DNA of 52,819 nt from Xanthomonas cannabis pv. cannabis (lineage in GTDB: Bacteria; Pseudomonadota; Gammaproteobacteria; Xanthomonadales; Xanthomonadaceae). Where the stretch lies: the NCBI RefSeq assembly GCF_000802365.1, contig NZ_JSZE01000069.1, positions 1-52,819 on the forward strand, written 5' to 3'. Under the pieces are notes generated by a model. The model saw nothing but the letters and a program-made list of their open reading frames with translations, had not been told where the DNA came from and made no database searches. The translations under genes and the position numbers were made by a program. Shown here one piece after another: positions 41,791-52,440 of the stretch. Numbering within the stretch: position 1 is the stretch's first letter; each line of letters begins with the position of its first letter.

Positions 41791-41869
41791 GCCTGCCACG
41801 TGGCGGTGTGGGCGCGATGGTTCGGTGACGGCCGGGCTGTAGTGGAAGTGAACCTGGAACCGTTATTTC
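41791..41869 (-). repeat. ~75-bp flanking repeat, left copy
   Basis: Reads (as complement) GAAATAACGGTTCCAGGTTC through to the CCGCCACGTGGC end. It is an imperfect inverted partner of 44964-45040. Its inner end ACCGTTATTTCG is partly duplicated at 41872-41883. It starts 20 bases after the TonB receptor stop. Confidence 0.75.
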
Positions 41870-44800
41870 GGACCGTTATTTCGCTCGCAGCAAGTTGCAT
41901 AGACTCTTTCCGGGATGATTGCCGAGGGCGCAAGAGTCCTATCGCACCGTCGAGAGCTAAGCGGGCACTACAGTATTTGGTGATTGGATTCTTTTTATTC
42001 CCCGCTTACTATCGGTCCTTAGTCGAAGGGGGCGGGGCGGGAGTGAGTCAATACTTATTGAACTTTGCAAAACACAATTTAGAAGGTAAGTCAGAGGCTT
42101 ACCTAATTTTGTTGTGGTGCCTGTATAAAGGGTACAGCAAAACAGGTAGATATTCCGATCAAATCAAAAGCTACCTTTCGAGAAACAGCGATAAAATATT
42201 TGATGGAAGCAGTAAGGGGTTATTTAGCGAGCGTATAGCCCGTAACGCTGCTAGGTTCAAGAAAGTTCTCGATGGCAGGGCTGAACTGGACTGGGTTGCC
42301 CCATCTGGCCTAAGTGCCTTGGCGGAAATGAATGTAAAAAATTTTCGAGGATTTGGGGAGTTGAGTGCCGACGATAGGGGGACGTTTATAAGATTTGGTA
42401 AAGTAAAGAATATCTTTTATGCTCCTAATGGAGGTGGCAAAACTTCTCTTTGCGAAGCGATAGAGTTCGGGACGACTGGGGCTATCAAAGAGGCAGATCG
42501 ACGCAAAACGAAGTTGAAAGACTATATTGCAAGGGGCAGTAAGAAGCAGTCTGTTTTTGTGCGCGATAAGCATGGGGTCGATATAGTAAAAAGCCAATCT
42601 TGGTCTGCTTGCTTTGTAGATCGTAATCGTTTGCAGGAGTTCTCGCTCCTGGGCTCTAAAGACACAGGAAGCAACGAAAGCGATGTAGTGGCAACGCTCT
42701 TCGGTCTTGAGGAGCTACAAGACGTCATTTCAAAGTTCGTCCGACCAGCTAGTTTCGATCTCCTGGGATTTCTAAAGTCAGGCAACTATGAGCAGCTAGC
42801 TCGGGCACGTGAGGAACATGATCGGCTTAAGGGGCTGAGATCTTCTGCGATCCAATCCATGGCGTTGGATACTCAGAATGTCCTGAGACTTTTAGGTATT
42901 CCTAAAGGTGAGGTTGCTGCAATCCGGCTTCGATATTTAAGGCTCTTAGAGTTGCACGACATGAAGATTCGAGTTGCTGAGCGACTCAAGGTGGCAGCCA
43001 AGCCGCTCGTCTTCAGTAAATCTGCTATCCATCGAGTGATAAGTATAGGGGCGAGGCTGAAATCAAGGCTTGAGAAGATCGATGGGGAGTTCGCAAAACT
43101 TTCATCAGCTATCAACTACCAGGCGCTTTTCGAAGCGATTAAGGCAATGGGGGAAGGTGATGAGCGCCCTGACTATTGTCCCGCGTGTTGCACTCCCCTG
43201 GACAAAGTCTCAAGGGATCCGTTCCTGCGTGCTAGAAATGAACTTGGCTCCATTGAAAGGTTAACGGATTTAAAGCGATCCAAGCACGCGTTAGAGCTTA
43301 AGACGATTGCATTGGCAGCACGGATTGCTACTTGGTACCAGGATTTTCTTGACAATGAGAAGGCAGGAATAGAATTCAAGGGAGACATAGCGGAGTTTGT
43401 TGAGAGCGTCAGCGTGTTTCATATTTCTGCTGATCGAGTTGGCGGGGCCACATCTCTATTGAGCACTATTGCCTCAAATTTGGCGGGGCAAGAAAGTGCC
43501 GTGGATGAATACGTGGGCCACTGCCGAGAAGCATTTGACAGGTACAGCAGCAGCGATGAGAGGGTTCGGAAACTTCTGGGCGACGTGAAAAAAATCTCGC
43601 ACAAGCTCGACGAGATTAAAAGTATTTTTTCGAATAAGAAGCAATGTCAAAGCTCATACAAGATTGCTGGTCGCGGCATTCAGGATATTTTAGCTAAGAT
43701 CAAAAGGCTGCAAGAGCTGACCAGTCGAGATAGCGCTTATAACGATTTGATTAGGCAGACGCAGGTGGAATACTCAAATCTGCACTCAGATCTTGCCGCT
43801 TTCAAAGTATCTATAGAAAAAGCCAGAATTTCAGGGATTGAAGAGAAGGCAGCGCATTACTACAAGGAAATTAATGCGCACGACGACGAGCATGAGCAGA
43901 TACTTGGTATCAGTTTTTCAGGTGTGAACGGTGGTTATAGAATCAATATCAAAGGCCAGGACTCTCTAGTTGCCGATGCTTTTGCCACGCTAAGTGAGGG
44001 TCATTTGAGAGTGCTTGGGCTATCTTTGCTTCTTGCGATGGCTCAGAAGAATAATTTGCCCCTCATTGTATTTGATGACGTGGTGAACGCCATTGATACT
44101 GAGCATAGGGCAAATATCATTCATCTTTTCTTTAATGATCCGTACTTGAAGAAAATTCAGATGGTAGTTACGACGCATGACAGACTCTTCTGGGAGCGAT
44201 TTTGCATGGTATCTGAAAGTAGTACTCATGCAGACCAAAGCTGTAGCAGAATATTAACGTGTACTAATCATGGAATCGTGTCTTTTGACTATGCAGGCGG
44301 CTTTAAGGCCAAGATAGAGAATGCGTTAGAAGTTTACGACATCAGACAGGCTCTGCTCTACTGCAGAATTTGGTTCGAAACAATGGTTGTCCAGTTCTGT
44401 TTAGATAATAAAATACAGGTTACCGCGACTTTTACTCCCCGGCAGCGGCATAAAGCTAATTTACTGCAAATAAGTCTTGAGAAAACCTTCAGCCTCGTTG
44501 AGGATTACATATCCTATGATTTTTCTAATTATCATGCCATTAAACGCGACCTGATAAATTGGGGGGCGCAAAATCAGGAGCATCATGCATTTGATGAATT
44601 CAGCTTTAATTTTGTGCATTCTAAGACAAGTCGCGAAGTTTTGGCCATTTATGAAGCAATTGATCGTTTCGAATGTCAACTCTTCCCACTTCAGCGAAAG
44701 GAGTACTGCTTAAGCTCGCTTGTCCTTGCTGAAAGCAAGATCGATCGGCTTGAGACAAAGACCGCAGGATTAACGCAGGCCCCGGAGGCGGTGAAGGCTA

Positions 44801-44949
44801 AATATGCTATGGAAATCGAGCGGCTGAAAGCTTTAGCTGCACTTAAGAAGGATCAGATAAATTATATTGAATTCTGTTTACGTCAGAGGCGACCCTCAAA
44901 GGAAGCACAGTCAGAGTCGGCCGATGAAAGAGAGACTGCGGACCAGTAG
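41800..44949 (+). CDS. SMC/Rad50-like ATPase with CxxC hook and extra C-terminal domain (defence-type, RloC-like?)
   Basis: Longest frame 1049 residues. Walker A APNGGGKTS (208-216), coiled-coil-rich middle with a CPAC hook at 460-463, ABC signature LSEGHLR (731-737), Walker B LIVFDDV (755-761) and H-loop TTHD (791-794). The split ATPase with a cysteine hook fits the Rad50/RloC class. After the ATPase comes a helical domain (about 830-1000) with R856-x3-E860 and His928/929, spaced somewhat like the Arg-Glu-His triad of PrrC/RloC anticodon nucleases; this match is tentative. Codon use is clearly AT-richer than its surroundings. The true start is uncertain: the frame opens at a GTG inside the flanking repeat, no in-frame ATG precedes 42328, and GTG at 42043 follows purine-rich sequence. 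Confidence 0.75.
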   Translation: MAVWARWFGDGRAVVEVNLEPLFRTVISLAASCIDSFRDDCRGRKSPIAPSRAKRALQYLVIGFFLFPAYYRSLVEGGGAGVSQYLLNFAKHNLEGKSEAYLILLWCLYKGYSKTGRYSDQIKSYLSRNSDKIFDGSSKGLFSERIARNAARFKKVLDGRAELDWVAPSGLSALAEMNVKNFRGFGELSADDRGTFIRFGKVKNIFYAPNGGGKTSLCEAIEFGTTGAIKEADRRKTKLKDYIARGSKKQSVFVRDKHGVDIVKSQSWSACFVDRNRLQEFSLLGSKDTGSNESDVVATLFGLEELQDVISKFVRPASFDLLGFLKSGNYEQLARAREEHDRLKGLRSSAIQSMALDTQNVLRLLGIPKGEVAAIRLRYLRLLELHDMKIRVAERLKVAAKPLVFSKSAIHRVISIGARLKSRLEKIDGEFAKLSSAINYQALFEAIKAMGEGDERPDYCPACCTPLDKVSRDPFLRARNELGSIERLTDLKRSKHALELKTIALAARIATWYQDFLDNEKAGIEFKGDIAEFVESVSVFHISADRVGGATSLLSTIASNLAGQESAVDEYVGHCREAFDRYSSSDERVRKLLGDVKKISHKLDEIKSIFSNKKQCQSSYKIAGRGIQDILAKIKRLQELTSRDSAYNDLIRQTQVEYSNLHSDLAAFKVSIEKARISGIEEKAAHYYKEINAHDDEHEQILGISFSGVNGGYRINIKGQDSLVADAFATLSEGHLRVLGLSLLLAMAQKNNLPLIVFDDVVNAIDTEHRANIIHLFFNDPYLKKIQMVVTTHDRLFWERFCMVSESSTHADQSCSRILTCTNHGIVSFDYAGGFKAKIENALEVYDIRQALLYCRIWFETMVVQFCLDNKIQVTATFTPRQRHKANLLQISLEKTFSLVEDYISYDFSNYHAIKRDLINWGAQNQEHHAFDEFSFNFVHSKTSREVLAIYEAIDRFECQLFPLQRKEYCLSSLVLAESKIDRLETKTAGLTQAPEAVKAKYAMEIERLKALAALKKDQINYIEFCLRQRRPSKEAQSESADERETADQ

Positions 44950-45075: not shown

Positions 45076-45906
45076 CTAGCTGCCCGATTCGTCTTCGCGC
45101 ATGGGTGGGTCGGAAAGCATCATCACGTCAGCGCCGATATGCGCACGAACGTATGCCTTGCAGTTGGGGCAGACGGTTGGCTTGAGAAGCTTGTCAGGGG
45201 CGAAGGGAACCATGGCCGTGCATTTGCAGAGAAGGCCGACGGCCAGAATCTTTTCGATCCGATGCTCTGGATCGTTCTTGATTGCGATGTAGCTGGCGTT
45301 GCACTTGGTGCTAGGACAGAAGATTGCCTTGTCACCGGCTTGTTCTGCGGGCCCCAAGATCAACACTTGGCCGCACGAACACTTACTGGTGGCGATGTCT
45401 TTGGCTGCCGCTATCAAGGTTGAGTTCGCTACATCTTCCAGCTCGGAAATCCAAAGCTGGAGCTTTTCCACCCTAGGGGGCTTCGTGCGCCTGTCCTTCT
45501 GGAGGTGGAGGTAGCTGCCCAGCGTGTTGTAGTAGGTGCGGAACTTTGACCAAGGGATGCGCTTTGCTTCGCCTATGGGCAAGAACTCTTGATCGCCAAA
45601 CAACTTTTTCAAGTCGCTGGTTTCGAAGTTGAGGTCGTCTGGAAGCGGTGAAACGGAGATGGAAAAGCTCGCCGTTTGATCGGAGTGTGGGTCGAATTGC
45701 GCCAGCATCCGGATGATCTGGTCAGGTCGCCACTCGCGGGTAAGCTCCGCCGAAACCTCTTCTCCATATGCCGCCAAGTTCTGGTAGGCCACGGACTCGA
45801 AGCAGAATCGGAGTTCAAGCGCTGCATAGAGCAGTGAATGCTCGTTGCCGGTTGCGATAAGTTCTCTTGCCCGGGCCAGCGGGTCGGTGATGTTGTAGAG
45901 GGCCAT
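45076..45906 (-). CDS. HEPN-like / zinc-ribbon protein of unknown function
   Basis: 276 residues. The N-terminal half is helical, LARARELIATGNEHSLLYAA then LELRFCFESVAYQNL, with the small-residue, Arg and Glu pattern of HEPN-type helical bundles. The C-terminal half carries cysteine pairs typical of one or two zinc ribbons: KCSCGQV, FCPSTKC, LCKC and VCPNC. ATG at 45906 chosen; a TTG one codon upstream is possible. It faces the ATPase gene, just outside the right flanking repeat, so it could be an independent accessory gene. No known catalytic motif (such as R-x4-6-H) is clear. Function unknown. Confidence 0.75.
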   Translation of the reverse strand: MALYNITDPLARARELIATGNEHSLLYAALELRFCFESVAYQNLAAYGEEVSAELTREWRPDQIIRMLAQFDPHSDQTASFSISVSPLPDDLNFETSDLKKLFGDQEFLPIGEAKRIPWSKFRTYYNTLGSYLHLQKDRRTKPPRVEKLQLWISELEDVANSTLIAAAKDIATSKCSCGQVLILGPAEQAGDKAIFCPSTKCNASYIAIKNDPEHRIEKILAVGLLCKCTAMVPFAPDKLLKPTVCPNCKAYVRAHIGADVMMLSDPPMREDESGS

Positions 45907-46153
45907 CAAGGTAGGCTACTGGGGTTGGGGAGGCGCGTCATCACCGGCCTAATGCGTTGTGCTGCTGGGCTGTGGAAGGACCGTGATGGCGTCAGGTGCA
46001 CTTATCAGACGACGGCGCTCGGCTTGCGTGGCCCGTATGGAACTGCGCCAGCGGCGCACACACCCGCGCGAGACCCGCAAGCGTGTATTGACACGCCAGA
46101 CCGCGTACTTGCAATCTAGGCCCAAGGAGCGTCGAAACTCCTCACGTAGCGGT

Positions 46154-46223: not shown

Positions 46224-46298
46224 GTCGGGAGGGCGGCTAATACAACACCCGCAAGGGGAATATGCCCGCCGGCTACGTGCGGTTTCGAACCTCCCGAC
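46224..46298 (+). ncRNA. C4-antisense-RNA-like structured element
   Basis: GTCGGGAGG pairs perfectly with CCTCCCGAC 57 bases later, enclosing a CCC-GCAA-GGG hairpin with a GNRA tetraloop and the stretch AATATGCCCGCCGGCTACGTG. By memory this matches the C4 antisense RNA of phages P1/P4 and relatives, which controls a downstream phage gene by antisense pairing. Here it sits 51 bases before the small gene at 46350, the position expected for such control. A covariance-model search would decide. Confidence 0.5.
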
Positions 46299-46349
46299 AT
46301 CCCGTCGCCGTTGGCGGCGGTTCTTGGGTTGTTCCAGGAGGGCGTTGCC

Positions 46350-46619
46350 ATGTCTACCGCACCATCCATGCCGGCATCTGTGCCGGTTGATCTGTTGCCA
46401 GCTTCCGCTCACCGCCTGCGGTGGGATCTGGGCGATGTGCTGCGCAGGCTCGATGCAAGCACAGCTATTGAGCAGGCGAGAGACCATACCGCGCATCCGC
46501 TGAGTCGCCAGCTCGGTGTATTGCCGCACACCTCGCGCCGCCTGTCGGCACGCAGAGCTGTGCCATTGCAGCAGTACGTCGCTGCAACCATCACCCGCCA
46601 TCACCCGGAGGCGCCATGA
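46350..46619 (+). CDS. Small phage-like protein downstream of the C4-like RNA
   Basis: 89 residues starting MSTAPSMPASVPVDLLP, with no known domain that I recognise. The start is firm: AGGAGG lies at ideal spacing before the ATG. The frame overlaps the SymE-like gene by four bases (ATGA), so the two are coupled. Genes after C4 RNAs are often small phage regulatory proteins (Ash/Icd-like), which is a possibility here. Confidence 0.7.
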   Translation: MSTAPSMPASVPVDLLPASAHRLRWDLGDVLRRLDASTAIEQARDHTAHPLSRQLGVLPHTSRRLSARRAVPLQQYVAATITRHHPEAP

Positions 46620-47032
46620 CACGCCGCCGCCCACCCAAGGCATCTGCCAACGCACGGCCCACCCGCACGCGTGCGCGCTCCGCGCCACCCAAGCGGGTGC
46701 AGTGGGTCGTTGTGGAACCCGACCGCACCAAGCTGCCACCGATGCTGCCACCCGACCCGGACGCCTCCCCGCAAGGTCCCGGCACGCTGCGCGCACCCCG
46801 CCGCGCCCGCCGCCCGCGCCAATGCACAGTCAGCTACACCCATTACCCCGGCGCCCACGACCACGCGGGCGACCAGCACGTGCCCCACGTCCGCCTCAGC
46901 GGCCTATGGCTGGAACAACTGGGCTTTGCCATCGGCACCAAGCTGCGCATCACCGCCAGCGCGGGGCAGTTGTTGATGGAGGTGTTACCGCCAGCGGAGG
47001 TGCCGGCCAGGGCGCGCAGCGTGCGGCGATGA
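46616..47032 (+). CDS. SymE-like toxin-family protein
   Basis: 138 residues. A long Arg/Pro-rich N-terminus (about 1-85) precedes a SymE fold (about 88-125) with HVRLSGLWLEQLGFAIGTK and LRITASAGQLLMEVLP, which match the SpoVT/AbrB-like SymE toxin family of type I toxin-antitoxin systems. No SymR-like antisense RNA could be established. The basic extension would suit nucleic-acid binding. The start codon overlaps the previous stop. A degenerate copy of its 3' half recurs at 49288-49488, and a shorter scrap at 50197-50248. Confidence 0.75.
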   Translation: MTRRRPPKASANARPTRTRARSAPPKRVQWVVVEPDRTKLPPMLPPDPDASPQGPGTLRAPRRARRPRQCTVSYTHYPGAHDHAGDQHVPHVRLSGLWLEQLGFAIGTKLRITASAGQLLMEVLPPAEVPARARSVRR

Positions 47033-47118: not shown

Positions 47119-47757
47119 ATGATCGCGCGCCCCCTCTACGCCTTGCTCGCCACCCTCGCTCTGGGCGCATGCGCCCACACGTCGGCCACCCCAGCCGCGG
47201 CAACCGTCACGGAGACATCTGCCATGCGTTCCTCATCCGAATCCGCAGTCACTCCCGCTGGCAGTGAACCCAGTGGGCCAATACGAACGGCAGAGGATGC
47301 GCTCACCCGCATGCTTGCATTGATTCAAGCTATTGATGGACTGGACGATCTGACACCTGACTACCTGCAGTCCAAAATGGGGGTTCCGGTGACGCGTGCG
47401 GCAGCTGATCCCAAGCGTTATGGCGCCAGTGCTCCGCTTACCAGTGAGTGGGGTTACAGCTTTGGCATGGACCAGACGCCTACTGCGGGGCGTTGGTTCG
47501 AGTTCACTTTTATTCCGGCGCAAGCGGGTGCTTCCCCGTCCATGGCGGAGATCTGCGGGATCGATTTCGATACGTTTACCAAGAAGCTGGAAAACGCCGG
47601 GTTTGTACGTCAACGCAACATGGTGGAAGACGGGCGATGGATGAGTGACTTCTTCAGCCGGCCAGGCATGCGCGTGGAGGTGTTTCCACGAGGTGAGGCT
47701 GATGCACCGCAGGAGCGGGTGGAGCACCACTGTGTTGAATGGATCTACATTCGTTAA
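47119..47757 (+). CDS. Lipoprotein 1, putative immunity protein for effector 1
   Basis: 212 residues. Lipoprotein signal MIARPLYALLATLALGAC with lipobox LGAC (Cys18), then a Thr/Ala-rich linker and a globular domain with WFEFTFIP, EICGIDFDTF and the conserved block VEDGRWMSDFFSRPGMRVEV. Export with lipidation places it in the periplasm, where immunity proteins of the Xanthomonas type IV bacterium-killing system protect against self-delivered toxins. The ATG at 47119 has only a weak ribosome site. The effector ATG follows 14 bases after the stop, so the two are one unit. The domain family itself is unknown to me. Confidence 0.85.
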   Translation: MIARPLYALLATLALGACAHTSATPAAATVTETSAMRSSSESAVTPAGSEPSGPIRTAEDALTRMLALIQAIDGLDDLTPDYLQSKMGVPVTRAAADPKRYGASAPLTSEWGYSFGMDQTPTAGRWFEFTFIPAQAGASPSMAEICGIDFDTFTKKLENAGFVRQRNMVEDGRWMSDFFSRPGMRVEVFPRGEADAPQERVEHHCVEWIYIR

Positions 47758-47771
47758 TCCAAGGAACGGTC

Positions 47772-49250
47772 ATGCCTTTGAGTCCACAGGCGCAAGCCAT
47801 TGTTGATGACTTCGGCCGCCAGCCAGGTGTCACCCCGGAACATGTCACCAATCTGCAGGGTGTGCTAGCCGCATCGCCCGTTTTGCTTGACCAATTCAAT
47901 GATGCGGTTGCCAAGCAGCGCGTACTCAGTCTAAAGCCGCTGACTGATCCGAATGCAGGCGGAACGTTCACGCCAGGTGAGCATTCCATCCGGCTACCGC
48001 TGTCCAGGCTTTCCAATGGGCCTGGCGGAAAGTTGCTTGATTCCGGTGACATGACGTTTGTGCTGGGGCATGAACTACAGCACGCCATGTACAGCCCAAC
48101 CGCAGCTGCTTCCCGTAAGGCGTTCGAAACCGCGGCGGTGCAGATAGCCAAGACCACGCACGATTATTCGGACGCAGCGGAGAAGGTTTTATCAAGCAAC
48201 CGTGTAGATGAAGCAAGCGCAGAAATTGCAGGCTGGAATGCAACCGTCAGCAGGGTAAAGCAAGCGAAGCCGGATGCCTCCCTGGAAGATATCTTTCGGG
48301 AAGCACCCGGCCGTATGCACGACTTCATTGATCGAACCGGCGGAATGCCGCAATTCAATTACGCGCTCAAGTCCAACCTTACCTTGAACGCAGATATGAC
48401 GATGCCCGTCACTCCTGCCAACGTTGAGGCGATGGGTGCAAACTTCTTCGACAAGGATGCCAAGGGCACTCGCATCGGCCATACGGGTCAGTCCGACTAC
48501 GCCAATCACTACGGCCCGTGGGTAGTTGGAACAGCTGCCATCTACGAGCGCCACTACAACAAGCAAAAGCCCGGAGAGCCAGAACAGCCGATGATTCTGG
48601 ATATGCGACGTCTGGGATTGAAAGAAGAAATACTCGAGCGCAATGGTATTGACCTGGGCAGCAATACGCGCCCGATGCCTTACCTGGATAGCAGCACCCA
48701 GCCCCCGACGCCGGGCTTGTTCCAGCACAGCAAGAACACGCATCTGCATGTCTCGCCGATCTCTGCACAAGAGCTGGAGCAGGAGCTCCGTGCGCGTGAA
48801 TCCCCATCGCAAGGAACGTCACTTCACCTTCTTCCGTCAGATCCAGGCCATGCGGATCACGCGCTATACCAGCAGATCAGAGGCGGGGTGCAAAAGCTCG
48901 ATAGCGCACATGGCAGGCAGTGGGATGCATCGAGCGAGCGCATGACCGCCAGCCTGCTTGCGCTGGCAAAAGAGGAAGGGTTGTCGCGGGTGGATCATGT
49001 GGTGCTCAACAACCCAACGGCTCAGCTGGCGGGCGGGGAGAAGGTCTTCATCGTTCAGGGCGCCCTCAACGACCCGGCTCACCAGCGTGCCCATATGTCG
49101 ACCATGGACGCCGTGCAGACACCAGAGACCCAGTCGTTCGATCGCCTGCAGGCAATCAACCAGACTCAGGCTCAGGCGCGCGAACAGCAGCAGGCGCTGG
49201 AGCAGTCCCAGCAAGCCGTTACCCAGGCCGGTCCGTCGATGACGCGTTGA
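47772..49250 (+). CDS. XVIPCD-type T4SS effector 1 with zincin (HELQH) domain
   Basis: 492 residues. The toxin half has the zinc-protease motif HELQH at 100-104 (VLGHELQHAMYSP), and a possible third ligand in RVDEASAEIAGW (Glu147 or Glu151). A middle region (about 230-300) is shared with effector 2 (HTGQSDYANHYGPWVVGTAA). The C-terminal 120 residues are a typical XVIPCD: HADHALYQQI, EEGLSRVDHVVLNNP, GEKVFIVQGALNDPAHQRAH, TQSFDRLQAINQ and a Gln-rich tail, the signal that recruits cargo to VirD4. The ATG at 47772 follows AAGGA at good spacing. It probably kills neighbours by cutting a periplasmic target; protease substrate unknown. The T4SS itself is not in the window. Confidence 0.88.
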   Translation: MPLSPQAQAIVDDFGRQPGVTPEHVTNLQGVLAASPVLLDQFNDAVAKQRVLSLKPLTDPNAGGTFTPGEHSIRLPLSRLSNGPGGKLLDSGDMTFVLGHELQHAMYSPTAAASRKAFETAAVQIAKTTHDYSDAAEKVLSSNRVDEASAEIAGWNATVSRVKQAKPDASLEDIFREAPGRMHDFIDRTGGMPQFNYALKSNLTLNADMTMPVTPANVEAMGANFFDKDAKGTRIGHTGQSDYANHYGPWVVGTAAIYERHYNKQKPGEPEQPMILDMRRLGLKEEILERNGIDLGSNTRPMPYLDSSTQPPTPGLFQHSKNTHLHVSPISAQELEQELRARESPSQGTSLHLLPSDPGHADHALYQQIRGGVQKLDSAHGRQWDASSERMTASLLALAKEEGLSRVDHVVLNNPTAQLAGGEKVFIVQGALNDPAHQRAHMSTMDAVQTPETQSFDRLQAINQTQAQAREQQQALEQSQQAVTQAGPSMTR

Positions 49251-49287
49251 GGTTCAACAAAGCGGGGTGAAGCCCACACGCCAAGCG

Positions 49288-49488
49288 CGCCAATCCGCCG
49301 TCAGCTACCTCATTGCCGCGGGCGCCGGCGACCAGCACGTGCCCCATGTCCGCCTCAGCGGCCTATGGCTGGAACAACTGGGCTTCGCCATCGGCACCAA
49401 GCTGCGCATCACCGCCAGCGCGGGGCAGCTGCTGATGATGTGTTGCCGCCGGCGGAGGCGCCGGCCAGGGCGCGTAGCGTGCGGCGAT
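49288..49488 (+). pseudogene. Degenerate SymE-like remnant
   Basis: Matches the 3' half of the SymE gene (HVRLSGLWLEQLGFAIGTK is intact at about 49345-49400). Near 49431 GCAGCTGCTGATGATGTG replaces GCAGTTGTTGATGGAGGTG, shifting the frame so the EVLPP tail is lost. The N-terminal half is absent. It belongs to the duplicated block 46869-47118 / 49329-49576 that carried lipoprotein 2 to this position. Confidence 0.75.
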
Positions 49489-49576
49489 GATGCGGCGGTT
49501 GCCAGAAGCCCTGCGATTGACCTCGGTGCCGGATGCCACTAGCGTCGCAGCCACACCAGCGCACAACGGACGCTTC

Positions 49577-50248
49577 ATGATCGCGCGCCCCCTCTACGCC
49601 TTGCTCGCCATCCTGGCTCTGGGAGCTTGCGCCCACGCGGCCGGCGGCGCAGCTCCGGCAACCGTCACGGAGACATCCGCCCTGAGTTCATCCAGCCCTG
49701 CCACTGTGCCGCCTGACAAGCCCACTGCGGAGAATTTGCTTGGACAGCTGCTTGCCTTGATCGAGGGCAGCCAGACCATCTACGACTTCACTCCCGAGCG
49801 TCTGAATTCGGCGATGGGGCAGGTGGTTCAGTTCGTGAAAGACGATGAACGCCGATACCGCGCCTTTGGCCGGCTCACCAAAGAGTGGAGTTACGGCTTT
49901 GGTGTCGATGAAACCAAGCTCGATGGACGCTGGTTCGAATTCCGTTTTGATCGCAATGTGGCTGGCGCATCGCCCCCGATGACCGAGATCTGCGGCCTGG
50001 ACTTCGACCGCTTTACCCAGCAGCTGGAAAGAATGGGATTCACGCGCGAGCGCAACATCGTCGAGGACGGTCGCTGGATGAGTGATTTCTTTAGCCGCCC
50101 AGGGATGCGTGTAGAGGTCTTCCCACGAGGCGAGGCTGCGGAACCGCAAGAGTTGGTGGCGCACAAATGCGTCGAGTGGGTCTACATCCGAAGGGAGGTG
50201 TTGCCGCCGGTGGAGATGCCGGCCAAGGTGCGCAGCGTGCGGCGATGA
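49577..50248 (+). CDS. Lipoprotein 2, putative immunity protein, with fused SymE-derived tail
   Basis: 223 residues. Lipoprotein signal MIARPLYALLAILALGAC with Cys18; domain similar to lipoproteins 1 and 3 (WFEFRFDRN, EICGLDFDRF, VEDGRWMSDFFSRPGMRVEV). After the usual end VEWVYIR there is no stop: the frame runs on into REVLPPVEMPAKVRSVRR, the out-of-place SymE C-terminus. It has no effector directly after it, only lipoprotein 3. It may be an orphan immunity protein that widens protection. Confidence 0.82.
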   Translation: MIARPLYALLAILALGACAHAAGGAAPATVTETSALSSSSPATVPPDKPTAENLLGQLLALIEGSQTIYDFTPERLNSAMGQVVQFVKDDERRYRAFGRLTKEWSYGFGVDETKLDGRWFEFRFDRNVAGASPPMTEICGLDFDRFTQQLERMGFTRERNIVEDGRWMSDFFSRPGMRVEVFPRGEAAEPQELVAHKCVEWVYIRREVLPPVEMPAKVRSVRR

Positions 50249-50328
50249 GGGTGCCAGAGACCTTGCGATTGACGTCGGTGCCCGATGCCACTAGCGTCGC
50301 AGCCACACCAGCGCACAACGGACGCTTC

Positions 50329-50958
50329 ATGATCGCGCGCCCCCTCTACGCCTTGCTCGCCATCTTCGCCCTGGGCGCATGCGCCCACACAGCAGCCACC
50401 CCAGCCCCGGCAACCGTCACGGAGACATCTGCCATGAGTTCCTCAGCCGATCGCGTACCTGCAGATCCTTCCAAAGGTGGACCACGTACCGCGCAGGAAG
50501 CATTGGAGCGGGTACTGGAGCTGATTCGCACAAGCACCAGTATTGAATCGTTCACTGCCGACCATGTGTCTCGAGCAATGGGCCAGTCGGTACAGCATCG
50601 CGATGATGGTTCCGGGCGGTTCGGTGCCAGCGGAGTGCTGACCCGAAACTGGAACTACGGGTTTGGTGTCAACAAAACCGAAGTAAAGGGAGCATGGTTC
50701 GAGTTCCTGTTCCTGCCTAATCCGCCAGAAGCGTCTCCGACTATGTCGGATATCTGCCAGATCGACTTCGAGGCATTTGCGGCGCACCTCGAGAAAATGG
50801 GTTTTTCGCGGCAGCGCAATCTTGTCGAAGATGGGCGATGGATGAGCGATATTTTTCAACGCCCAGGGATGCGCGTGGAGCTCTTCCCGCGTGGCGAGGC
50901 TGACGAACCTTTGGCGCGCACCACTCATCAGTGCATAGAGTGGGTTCAAATTCGCTAG
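50329..50958 (+). CDS. Lipoprotein 3, putative immunity protein for effector 2
   Basis: 209 residues. Signal MIARPLYALLAIFALGAC, then the same fold as lipoproteins 1-2 with WFEFLFLPN, DICQIDFEAF and VEDGRWMSDIFQRPGMRVEL, ending IEWVQIR. The stop is 14 bases before the effector 2 ATG, with AAGGAG in between, exactly the spacing seen for pair 1. This mirrored layout supports an immunity-effector reading. Confidence 0.85.
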   Translation: MIARPLYALLAIFALGACAHTAATPAPATVTETSAMSSSADRVPADPSKGGPRTAQEALERVLELIRTSTSIESFTADHVSRAMGQSVQHRDDGSGRFGASGVLTRNWNYGFGVNKTEVKGAWFEFLFLPNPPEASPTMSDICQIDFEAFAAHLEKMGFSRQRNLVEDGRWMSDIFQRPGMRVELFPRGEADEPLARTTHQCIEWVQIR

Positions 50959-50972
50959 TCCAAGGAGCGGAC

Positions 50973-52440
50973 ATGTTGAGTCAAGAAGCAAGTGCAGTGG
51001 TGGCGTCATTTGGTCAGCAACCAGGTGTCACACGTGAGCATCTGGACAACTTCAACCGGGTCCTGAACGATTCGCCCGAGTTGACCCGCCAGATCAACGA
51101 GGCGGTGCAAAAAAAAGGTGCTGAAAGGCTTCGCGCCGTTAAACGATCCGCATGCGGGAGGCACCTATGATCCACGCGATCAGAAAATTCATCTGCCGCT
51201 TGCAGCGCTGGTGAATGATGCCAACGGCAAGCATGCAGCAGCAGGCGATTTGACCTTCGTCATGGGACATGAAATTCAGCATAGCCTTTACAGCCCCACT
51301 GCTGCGCTTGCGCGGGAACAGTTCAAAACAGAGGCAATAAAAATTGCCCGTAGCACGCATGATTACACTGCTGCTGGCGAGAAGGTGCTGGCCAGTAATC
51401 GTACGGACGAAGCAACGGCCGAAATAGCCGGATGGAACGCTATCGTGAGCGCGGTCAAGAGTCGTAATCCTAATCCTACGCTTGAAGATGTGTACCTGTT
51501 TGCGGATGGTCGGGCCAGAGATTTCGTCACGCGCAGCGGTTATCCAAGCGTCTATACGCCCAAGGCAAACCTGACGTTCAATAGCGACCTGACGTTGTCG
51601 CCCACGGCGGATAATGTCGAGGCAATGGGAGCGAATTACTTCGACAAGTCGGTCAAGGACACCCGTATCGGTCATGCGGGCCAGTCCGACTACGTCAACC
51701 ATTACGGTCCTTGGGTGGTCGGCACAGCCGCCATCTACGAGCGACACTACAACAAGTCAAAGCCCGGCGAGCCGGAGCAGCCAATGATCCTGGACATGCA
51801 ACGCCTGGGATTCAATGAAGAAATTTTGGAGCACAACGGCATTGACCTGGGCAGCGACACCCGTCCCATGCCATACCTGGACAGTAGTAAGCAGCCGCCA
51901 ACCCCTGGGCTCTTCCAGCACAGCAAGGACACTCACCTGCACGTCTCGCCGATTTCTGCTCAGGCGCTGGAGCAGGAGCTGCGAGAGCGCGACCCACAAT
52001 CGCCACGGTCCCCGGCGCAGACGCCTTCACAGCCAGGCCACCCAGACCACGCGCTTTACCAGCAGATCAAGGGTGGCGTGACGCAGCTAGACGCCCTGCA
52101 TGGCAGGGAGTGGGATGCATCAAGCCAGCGCATGACCGCCAGCCTGCTTGCGCTGGCAAAAGAGGAAGGATTGTCGCGGGTGGACCATGTGGTGCTCAAT
52201 AACCCAACACCGCAGCTAGCCGCCGGCGAAAAGGTCTTCGTCGTCCAGGGCGCCCTCAACGATCCGGCACACCAGCGCGCACACATGCCGACCGTGGACG
52301 CCGTGCAGACACCAGAGACCCAGTCGTTCGATCGCCTGCAGGCAATCAACCAGACTCAGGCCCAGGCGCGCGAACAGCAGCAGGCGCTGGAGCAGCCCCA
52401 GCAAGCCGTCAGCCAGGCTGGTCCGTCGATGACGCGCTGA
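50973..52440 (+). pseudogene. XVIPCD-type T4SS effector 2 with zincin (HEIQH) domain, interrupted at an A8 tract
   Basis: ATG at 50973 begins MLSQEASAVVASFGQQPG, like the N-terminus of effector 1. At 51109-51116 an A8 run throws the frame into a 65-residue dead end (stop at 51168-51170). Removing one A would join it to the frame ...KKVLKGFAPLNDPHAGGT and give about 488 residues, close to the 492 of effector 1. The downstream part is intact: HEIQH zinc motif (VMGHEIQHSLYSP), the GQSDYVNHYGPWVVGTAA block and a full XVIPCD with Gln-rich tail. Either a recent pseudogene, a phase-variable/slippage site, or a homopolymer sequencing error. Confidence 0.85.

Follow-up and report, generated by a model that had tools for sequence, protein, structure and literature searches.

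The closest described counterpart of the genes reported here is the XAC0096/XAC0097 pair of Xanthomonas citri, a putative HExxH metallopeptidase effector (X-Tfe) and its immunity protein (X-Tfi), so described in the accessible text of PMC6759196 and PMC10933484. We analyzed a window of 52,819 nucleotides from Xanthomonas cannabis pv. cannabis (contig NZ_JSZE01000069.1, positions 1 to 52,819 of the forward strand), which at 47.1-52.4 kb carries two effector genes of one family and three lipoprotein genes of another. Like the intact pair in this window, XAC0096/XAC0097 combines an XVIPCD, the export domain of the type IV secretion system (T4SS), with an HExxH motif, and the immunity gene lies alongside (also in the accessible part of PMC6536674); XAC0096 is likened to the window family by description only. 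Because XAC0096 is in print as an HExxH X-Tfe, this class is not new; the sequence-only reading of the window named no described member with such a domain. Judged from sequence, the family belongs to the bactericidal effector/immunity systems of T4SSs that are already in print. What is added here is the delimitation of this zinc-enzyme class among the weapons of bacterium-killing T4SSs, the lipoprotein family matched to it and the wide occurrence of an internal start in the lipoprotein genes.

We consider it likely that the array is a decayed tandem series of cassettes, each pairing effector with immunity protein and serving a bacterium-killing T4SS of the X-type, and that its parts work together as follows. 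The XVIPCD would load effector 1 onto the T4SS for injection into a neighbouring Gram-negative cell, where the gluzincin-type domain (H100, H104 and E147, with E101 as general base) would cut a peptide bond in the target. In the producer, the lipoprotein from the upstream gene would bind and block effector 1, and a shorter cytosolic antidote made from an internal start would probably keep the effector silent before export. The cassettes would turn over by recombination, with leader and signal peptide as the left end and the XVIPCD as the right end; effectors would be lost or broken first, and the lipoproteins would remain as spare immunity.

The whole effector and its predicted zinc site

Effector 1 is encoded by a whole gene on the plus strand (47772-49250; 492 aa from the ATG at 47772, in a frame open from 47739). 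The XVIPCD noted earlier in both effectors was recovered by profile search: PF20410 matches effector 1 at 48837-49154 (E 9.4e-34; 116.5 bits, cut-off 24.9) and effector 2 with E 6.4e-34. In a fold search, the effector 1 domain matches 7mu9 and 7r6s. XAC2609, 7r6s (S. maltophilia) and Smlt3024 share the export domain of effector 1 by profile and fold, but their N-terminal domains differ from that of effector 1. The NCBIfam model of Smlt3024 covers the XVIPCD only (residues 366-492 of the 503-residue frame) and scores 131.5 bits, where the cut-off is 800.

The motif HELQH occurs once in effector 1 (residues 100-104, codons 48069-48083). H100 and H104 are predicted zinc ligands and E101 the predicted catalytic residue, while E147 (codon 48210-48212) lies in helix 133-165 of the structural model, a position from which its role as third ligand of the gluzincin type is predicted. 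These four residues are invariant in 60/60 sequences of an alignment of effector 1 with 59 relatives. Together with a ratio of nonsynonymous to synonymous substitution (dN/dS) of 0.08-0.17 against 6 orthologues, this invariance exceeds what chance would give. Fold search with a model of the N-domain returned, among the matches listed, gluzincin-type or related zincins, and the modeled domain resembles gluzincins. Together with the invariant glutamate, this supports the zincin-like character first suggested by the HExxH motif; zinc binding, proteolysis and secretion of effector 1 are predicted.

Profile comparison with peptidase families, proposed earlier as a check, placed the N-domain in no named family above cut-off. 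No Pfam or NCBIfam family fits it, and none of the M48, M13 and M91 profiles matches effector 1 above its curated cut-off. The best sub-cut-off matches were M91 (E 0.0089, in 2), M48 (0.03, in 2) and M13 (0.049, in 1) for 16 aligned family members, and M13 (E 0.0013, in 1) and M91 (0.0068, in 1) for 60. A profile of the N-domain gave weak matches alone among PDB sequences (3c37, E 0.65), and no plasmid record matched effector 1. Compared with the gluzincins (M1, M13 and kin), the window family lacks a significant sequence family and has an N-terminal region of its own (approximately residues 1-90), which is partly repeated in longer relatives. In these relatives (approximately 560-700 aa; for example at loci L033, L105 and L125), the first ~90 residues are duplicated before the zinc domain.

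The zinc domain could instead be a peptidoglycan peptidase or amidase with the cell wall as its target, which we regard as possible though doubtful. The HExxH label in a review reportedly goes back to a paper on peptidoglycan amidases, which would speak for the cell wall. The cognate protein is a lipoprotein with two invariant cysteines, and the X-Tfes of X. citri are, in the accessible text of PMC6536674, mostly predicted to attack peptidoglycan or lipids from within the periplasm. However, none of the gluzincin-type or related zincin matches listed was recognized as M15, M23 or LAS-type, and Pfam finds no peptidoglycan-binding domain in effector 1. The fold by itself does not settle the substrate.

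The lipoprotein partner and its internal start

Lipoprotein 1 (47119-47757, plus strand, 212 aa, lipobox LGAC; MIARPLYALLATLALGAC) ends 14 bases before the ATG of effector 1, and the two form a putative X-Tfi/X-Tfe pair. The sequence-only reading had described two such pairs, each an HExxH and XVIPCD protein placed 14 bases behind a lipobox protein. This arrangement stands for effector 1; behind lipoprotein 3 (50329-50958, plus strand, candidate immunity protein) an ATG follows at the same distance (50973), but its frame runs for 65 codons only and effector 2 is frame-broken. The two-pair array was also incomplete, as one more member of the lipoprotein family, lipoprotein 2 (49577-50248, plus strand), lies between the pairs without an effector. 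The array therefore holds one whole pair (type A), one lone lipoprotein (type B) and one pair with a broken effector (type C). All three lipoproteins carry the lipobox LGAC. Lipoprotein 2 has 18 extra C-terminal residues that resemble the end of a SymE-like open reading frame (ORF), and lipoprotein 3 shares 95-96% identity with its counterparts in two type-C pairs that are whole (loci L058 and L059). In the host genome, a Xanthomonas draft of 4.76 Mb, a search for the lipoprotein family at E 0.001 returned the three array copies alone; XVIPCD matches number 12, both array effectors counted.

A scan of species genomes yielded 112 relatives, of which 80 were kept as loci. These 80 lie in Xanthomonas, Luteimonas, Dyella, Luteibacter, Lysobacter, Stenotrophomonas and Vulcaniibacterium, and further in Rhodanobacter, Frateuria, Pseudoxanthomonas, Variovorax and other kin. 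Among 35 Xanthomonas genomes, the N-domain is matched in 32 and the lipoprotein in 29. Partners were identified with a lipoprotein profile seeded with the three window copies and iterated, a lipobox not being required. A gene of this family lies directly upstream on the same strand in 78/81 effector ORFs; the exceptions are L075, which lies at a contig end, L104, where a lipoprotein ORF overlaps the effector, and L119, which has no partner. By the strict lipobox pattern alone, an upstream partner is found in 52/81. A further 22 profile matches are non-adjacent lipoprotein copies or fragments.

Effector and lipoprotein also vary together. Their pairwise distances correlate with r 0.91 over 78 pairs, a value inflated by shared ancestry, and within Xanthomonas the types A, B and C of effector and lipoprotein agree in 16/16 pairs, which were chosen for a whole effector and lipoprotein and include the three reference pairs themselves. 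The lipobox cysteine is present in 63/66 aligned lipoproteins, and C146 and C205 are invariant across the 66, as would be expected if the protein folds in the periplasm. The fold search with the lipoprotein gave nothing above background, and the absence of a family from those lists excludes nothing. The proposal that the lipoprotein is a candidate immunity partner is strengthened by this linkage and type matching, and we infer that it would neutralize the effector.

Many of the lipoprotein genes contain a second potential start. In lipoprotein 1, a GGAG (47211-47214) precedes an in-frame ATG (47224-47226), a candidate start for a cytosolic form; lipoprotein 3 has the corresponding ATG at 50434, and lipoprotein 2 has CTG in this position. 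Such an in-frame ATG with a Shine-Dalgarno-like site is present in 52/66 aligned lipoprotein genes, as against 15 of 281 Met codons further downstream in those genes. The ATG mostly lies 12-21 codons past the lipobox cysteine, with the Shine-Dalgarno-like site 4-15 nt upstream, and the region often encodes KExxAM. Alternative starts have been proposed for X. citri immunity lipoproteins generally (accessible text of PMC6536674); the new part is the conservation of the internal start over many genera. This conservation suggests that a cytosolic form of the antidote is also made, and it turns the X. citri suggestion of immunity proteins acting at two sites into a prediction that can be tested across the family.

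Some lipoprotein genes that stand alone have lost the internal start. Among 38 distinct Xanthomonas lipoprotein genes, start or Shine-Dalgarno site is lost in 4/17 genes without a sizeable effector (start codon in three, Shine-Dalgarno site in one) and in 0/21 genes with one (Fisher p 0.032, which ignores shared descent). In this comparison, three rows missed by the pattern were classed by eye, two rows with 270 open residues were counted as lone because no more than an effector remnant is left there, and broken effectors were counted as present. The loss in lone copies, including lipoprotein 2 of the window, is suggestive only.

These data bear on a reading in which the effector has a cytosolic target, most of the protection comes from the cytosolic form and the lipoprotein form guards only against incoming or leaked effector. 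Both the conservation of the start with its Shine-Dalgarno site across genera and its loss in some genes without a sizeable effector are in favor of this reading. Nevertheless, the p value takes no account of shared descent, the lipobox cysteine is kept in nearly all aligned lipoproteins, and the alternative starts of X. citri, being general (PMC6536674, accessible part), may merely keep effectors inactive before export. We consider this reading rather unlikely.

A role of the lipoprotein in secretion, as a chaperone, or in regulation is still less probable. Linkage and covariation by themselves do not prove neutralization, but in 17/38 genes, window lipoprotein 2 included, the lipoprotein gene outlasts a lost or truncated effector. 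Because lipoprotein genes persist without an effector, immunity is favored over chaperoning.

Export machinery and a short C-terminal tail

The interpretation of the effectors as T4SS cargo agrees with the host genome, in which one contig carries genes for VirB2, VirB4, VirB8, VirB9, VirB10, VirB11, an SLT protein and VirD4. They represent a VirB/VirD4 T4SS, presumably of the X-type, the mark of which is a large VirB7.

The export domain is not universal in the family. Our own profile finds XVIPCD in 47/60 aligned effectors (46 by Pfam at E 0.01). The remaining 13 comprise two with a diverged XVIPCD as judged by eye (L108, L134), one truncated effector (L098) and ten short-tailed effectors (loci L112, L118, L120, L122, L127, L129, L140, L085, L095 and L126). 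Their tail of ~65-80 residues consists of a module like MLAA..GD..R....... P.GRE and a Q-rich end, often with GPVM or similar. In 2/60 effectors the tail module precedes an XVIPCD.

A tail profile was built from nine of the ten short-tailed effectors and searched in their nine genomes. It gave 27 matches, the nine seeds and 18 other ORFs, and in 18/18 of the latter the tail ends at most 19 residues from the C-terminus. Apart from the ten effectors, tail-bearing toxin-like proteins were noted at loci L164-L202, L217:13714-15291 and L219:1906-3219. Among 16 scanned non-seed ORFs, nine have a toxin-type enzyme domain above the Pfam cut-off: Tle1-like phospholipase (two), Lipase_3 (two), phage lysozyme (two), calpain (one), GH19 with M23 and a peptidoglycan-binding domain (one), and M23 with a peptidoglycan-binding domain (one). 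One of the Tle1-like effectors with a tail is found in Dyella nitratireducens, on the downstream side of virB8-B9-B10-B4; a protein carrying a lipobox-like ITGC precedes it by 17 bases. A tail protein of the M23 type is located ~6 kb from virB4 in Lysobacteraceae NML93-0793. Order-wide, the tail is matched (1e-5) in at least 10 of 200 genomes, with 27 candidates scored per genome. Of 12 ORFs found in this way, 11 have a terminal tail and one an XVIPCD behind it, and 5/8 of those scanned are Tle1-like. No curated model covers the tail in the proteins compared (Pfam: 16/18 other ORFs, 4/9 seeds and 8/12 order-wide ORFs; NCBIfam: eight proteins).

In our estimate the chances are even that cargo of bactericidal T4SSs can bear, in place of XVIPCD, another and shorter export signal at the C-terminus, and the tail may be such an alternative or an accessory signal. 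Five of the nine tail genomes have VirB4 without PF20410, three have both and one has neither. Weighing against an export role, a tail genome (Variovorax, G042) has no VirB4 match, and the three genomes with both also have XVIPCD at their disposal. If the tail is an export signal, effector searches that rely on XVIPCD overlook some of the weapons, and some T4SS genomes without XVIPCD proteins would still have effectors. None of the papers listed by literature searches points to such a tail in its title or opening, and the accessible portions of PMC6536674, PMC6759196, PMC10933484, PMC10432156 and PMC10989847 are silent on it; the search covered little of the subscription literature. The atypical T4SS effectors (T4Es) Le1637 and XAC2247 are homologous to toxins of T4SSs, have no XVIPCD and are accompanied by a neighbouring antidote. 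In this they are like the short-tailed relatives, but no C-terminal tail is described for them, and no role of Le1637 was seen in the killing of three prey strains (all from the accessible text of PMC10989847).

A terminal GPxM was considered as the core of both tail types and rejected, being enriched without being general (14/47 effectors with XVIPCD, 7/13 without it and 40/2234 background ORFs). One of the 12 ORFs from the order-wide search belongs to the genome of the window itself, where its neighbour is a protein carrying a lipobox-like LCAC.

Broken copies, cassette ends and flanking sequence

The reading frame of effector 2 breaks near 51.11 kb. Its N-terminal piece (50973-51170, plus strand) stops after 65 codons, and HEIQH (51268-51282) and the XVIPCD (52030-52344) lie off the ATG frame in a C-terminal piece (51118-52440, plus strand). 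Type-C effectors are broken in one same stretch in the window, X. codiaei and X. pisi; two more genomes retain ~45 N-terminal residues, and whole type-C effectors are present in several genomes. The breaks look like separate events, since the phase is not the same in the window copy as in that of X. pisi. Frameshifted X-Tfe remnants have been noted in X. citri as well (accessible text of PMC6536674). It is very improbable that effector 2 is still produced through programmed frameshifting or transcript slippage: its C-terminal piece still has a dN/dS of 0.12-0.17 against five whole copies, and the X. codiaei and X. pisi copies shift frame in the same stretch, but recent breaks would leave dN/dS low as well, whole type-C copies exist, and the difference in phase points to separate breaks and not to one conserved recoding site.

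The cassette ends are conserved between types. When types A and C from the window and B from X. melonis were compared in 100-base steps, between-type identity was 78-100% in leader and signal peptide and 65-100% in linker and XVIPCD, as against 41-84% in the zinc domain and the remainder of the lipoprotein. With ends that are conserved and a core that varies, effector and antidote could be exchanged jointly, and we infer that recombination takes place between the cassette ends. Such a cassette structure would let effector and antidote swap as a single unit.

SymE-like sequence lies ahead of lipoproteins 1 and 2. The 5' neighbour of the first cassette is a SymE-like ORF of 138 aa (46616-47032, plus strand; PF08845, E 1e-16), and SymE-like fragments are found at 49279-49487. 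Matches over at least 130 of the 138 residues occur in 14/80 relative loci, every one in Xanthomonas, and in a number of loci of this genus SymE-like sequence stands ahead of the cassette. This sequence perhaps serves as promoter or as homology for recombination.

At the edge of the array, 41800-44949 encodes a 1049-aa SMC/AAA ATPase of low GC content (bulk 43-47%), parts of which match Lamassu LmuB (E 1e-18) and further ATPases of defence systems. On the minus strand (45076-45909) follows a 277-aa ORF with CxxC-like pairs and no match in Pfam, NCBIfam or PADLOC. The small RNA sRNA-Xcc1 (Rfam RF02221, 79.3 bits) is located at 46224-46306, just 5' of the SymE-like ORF.

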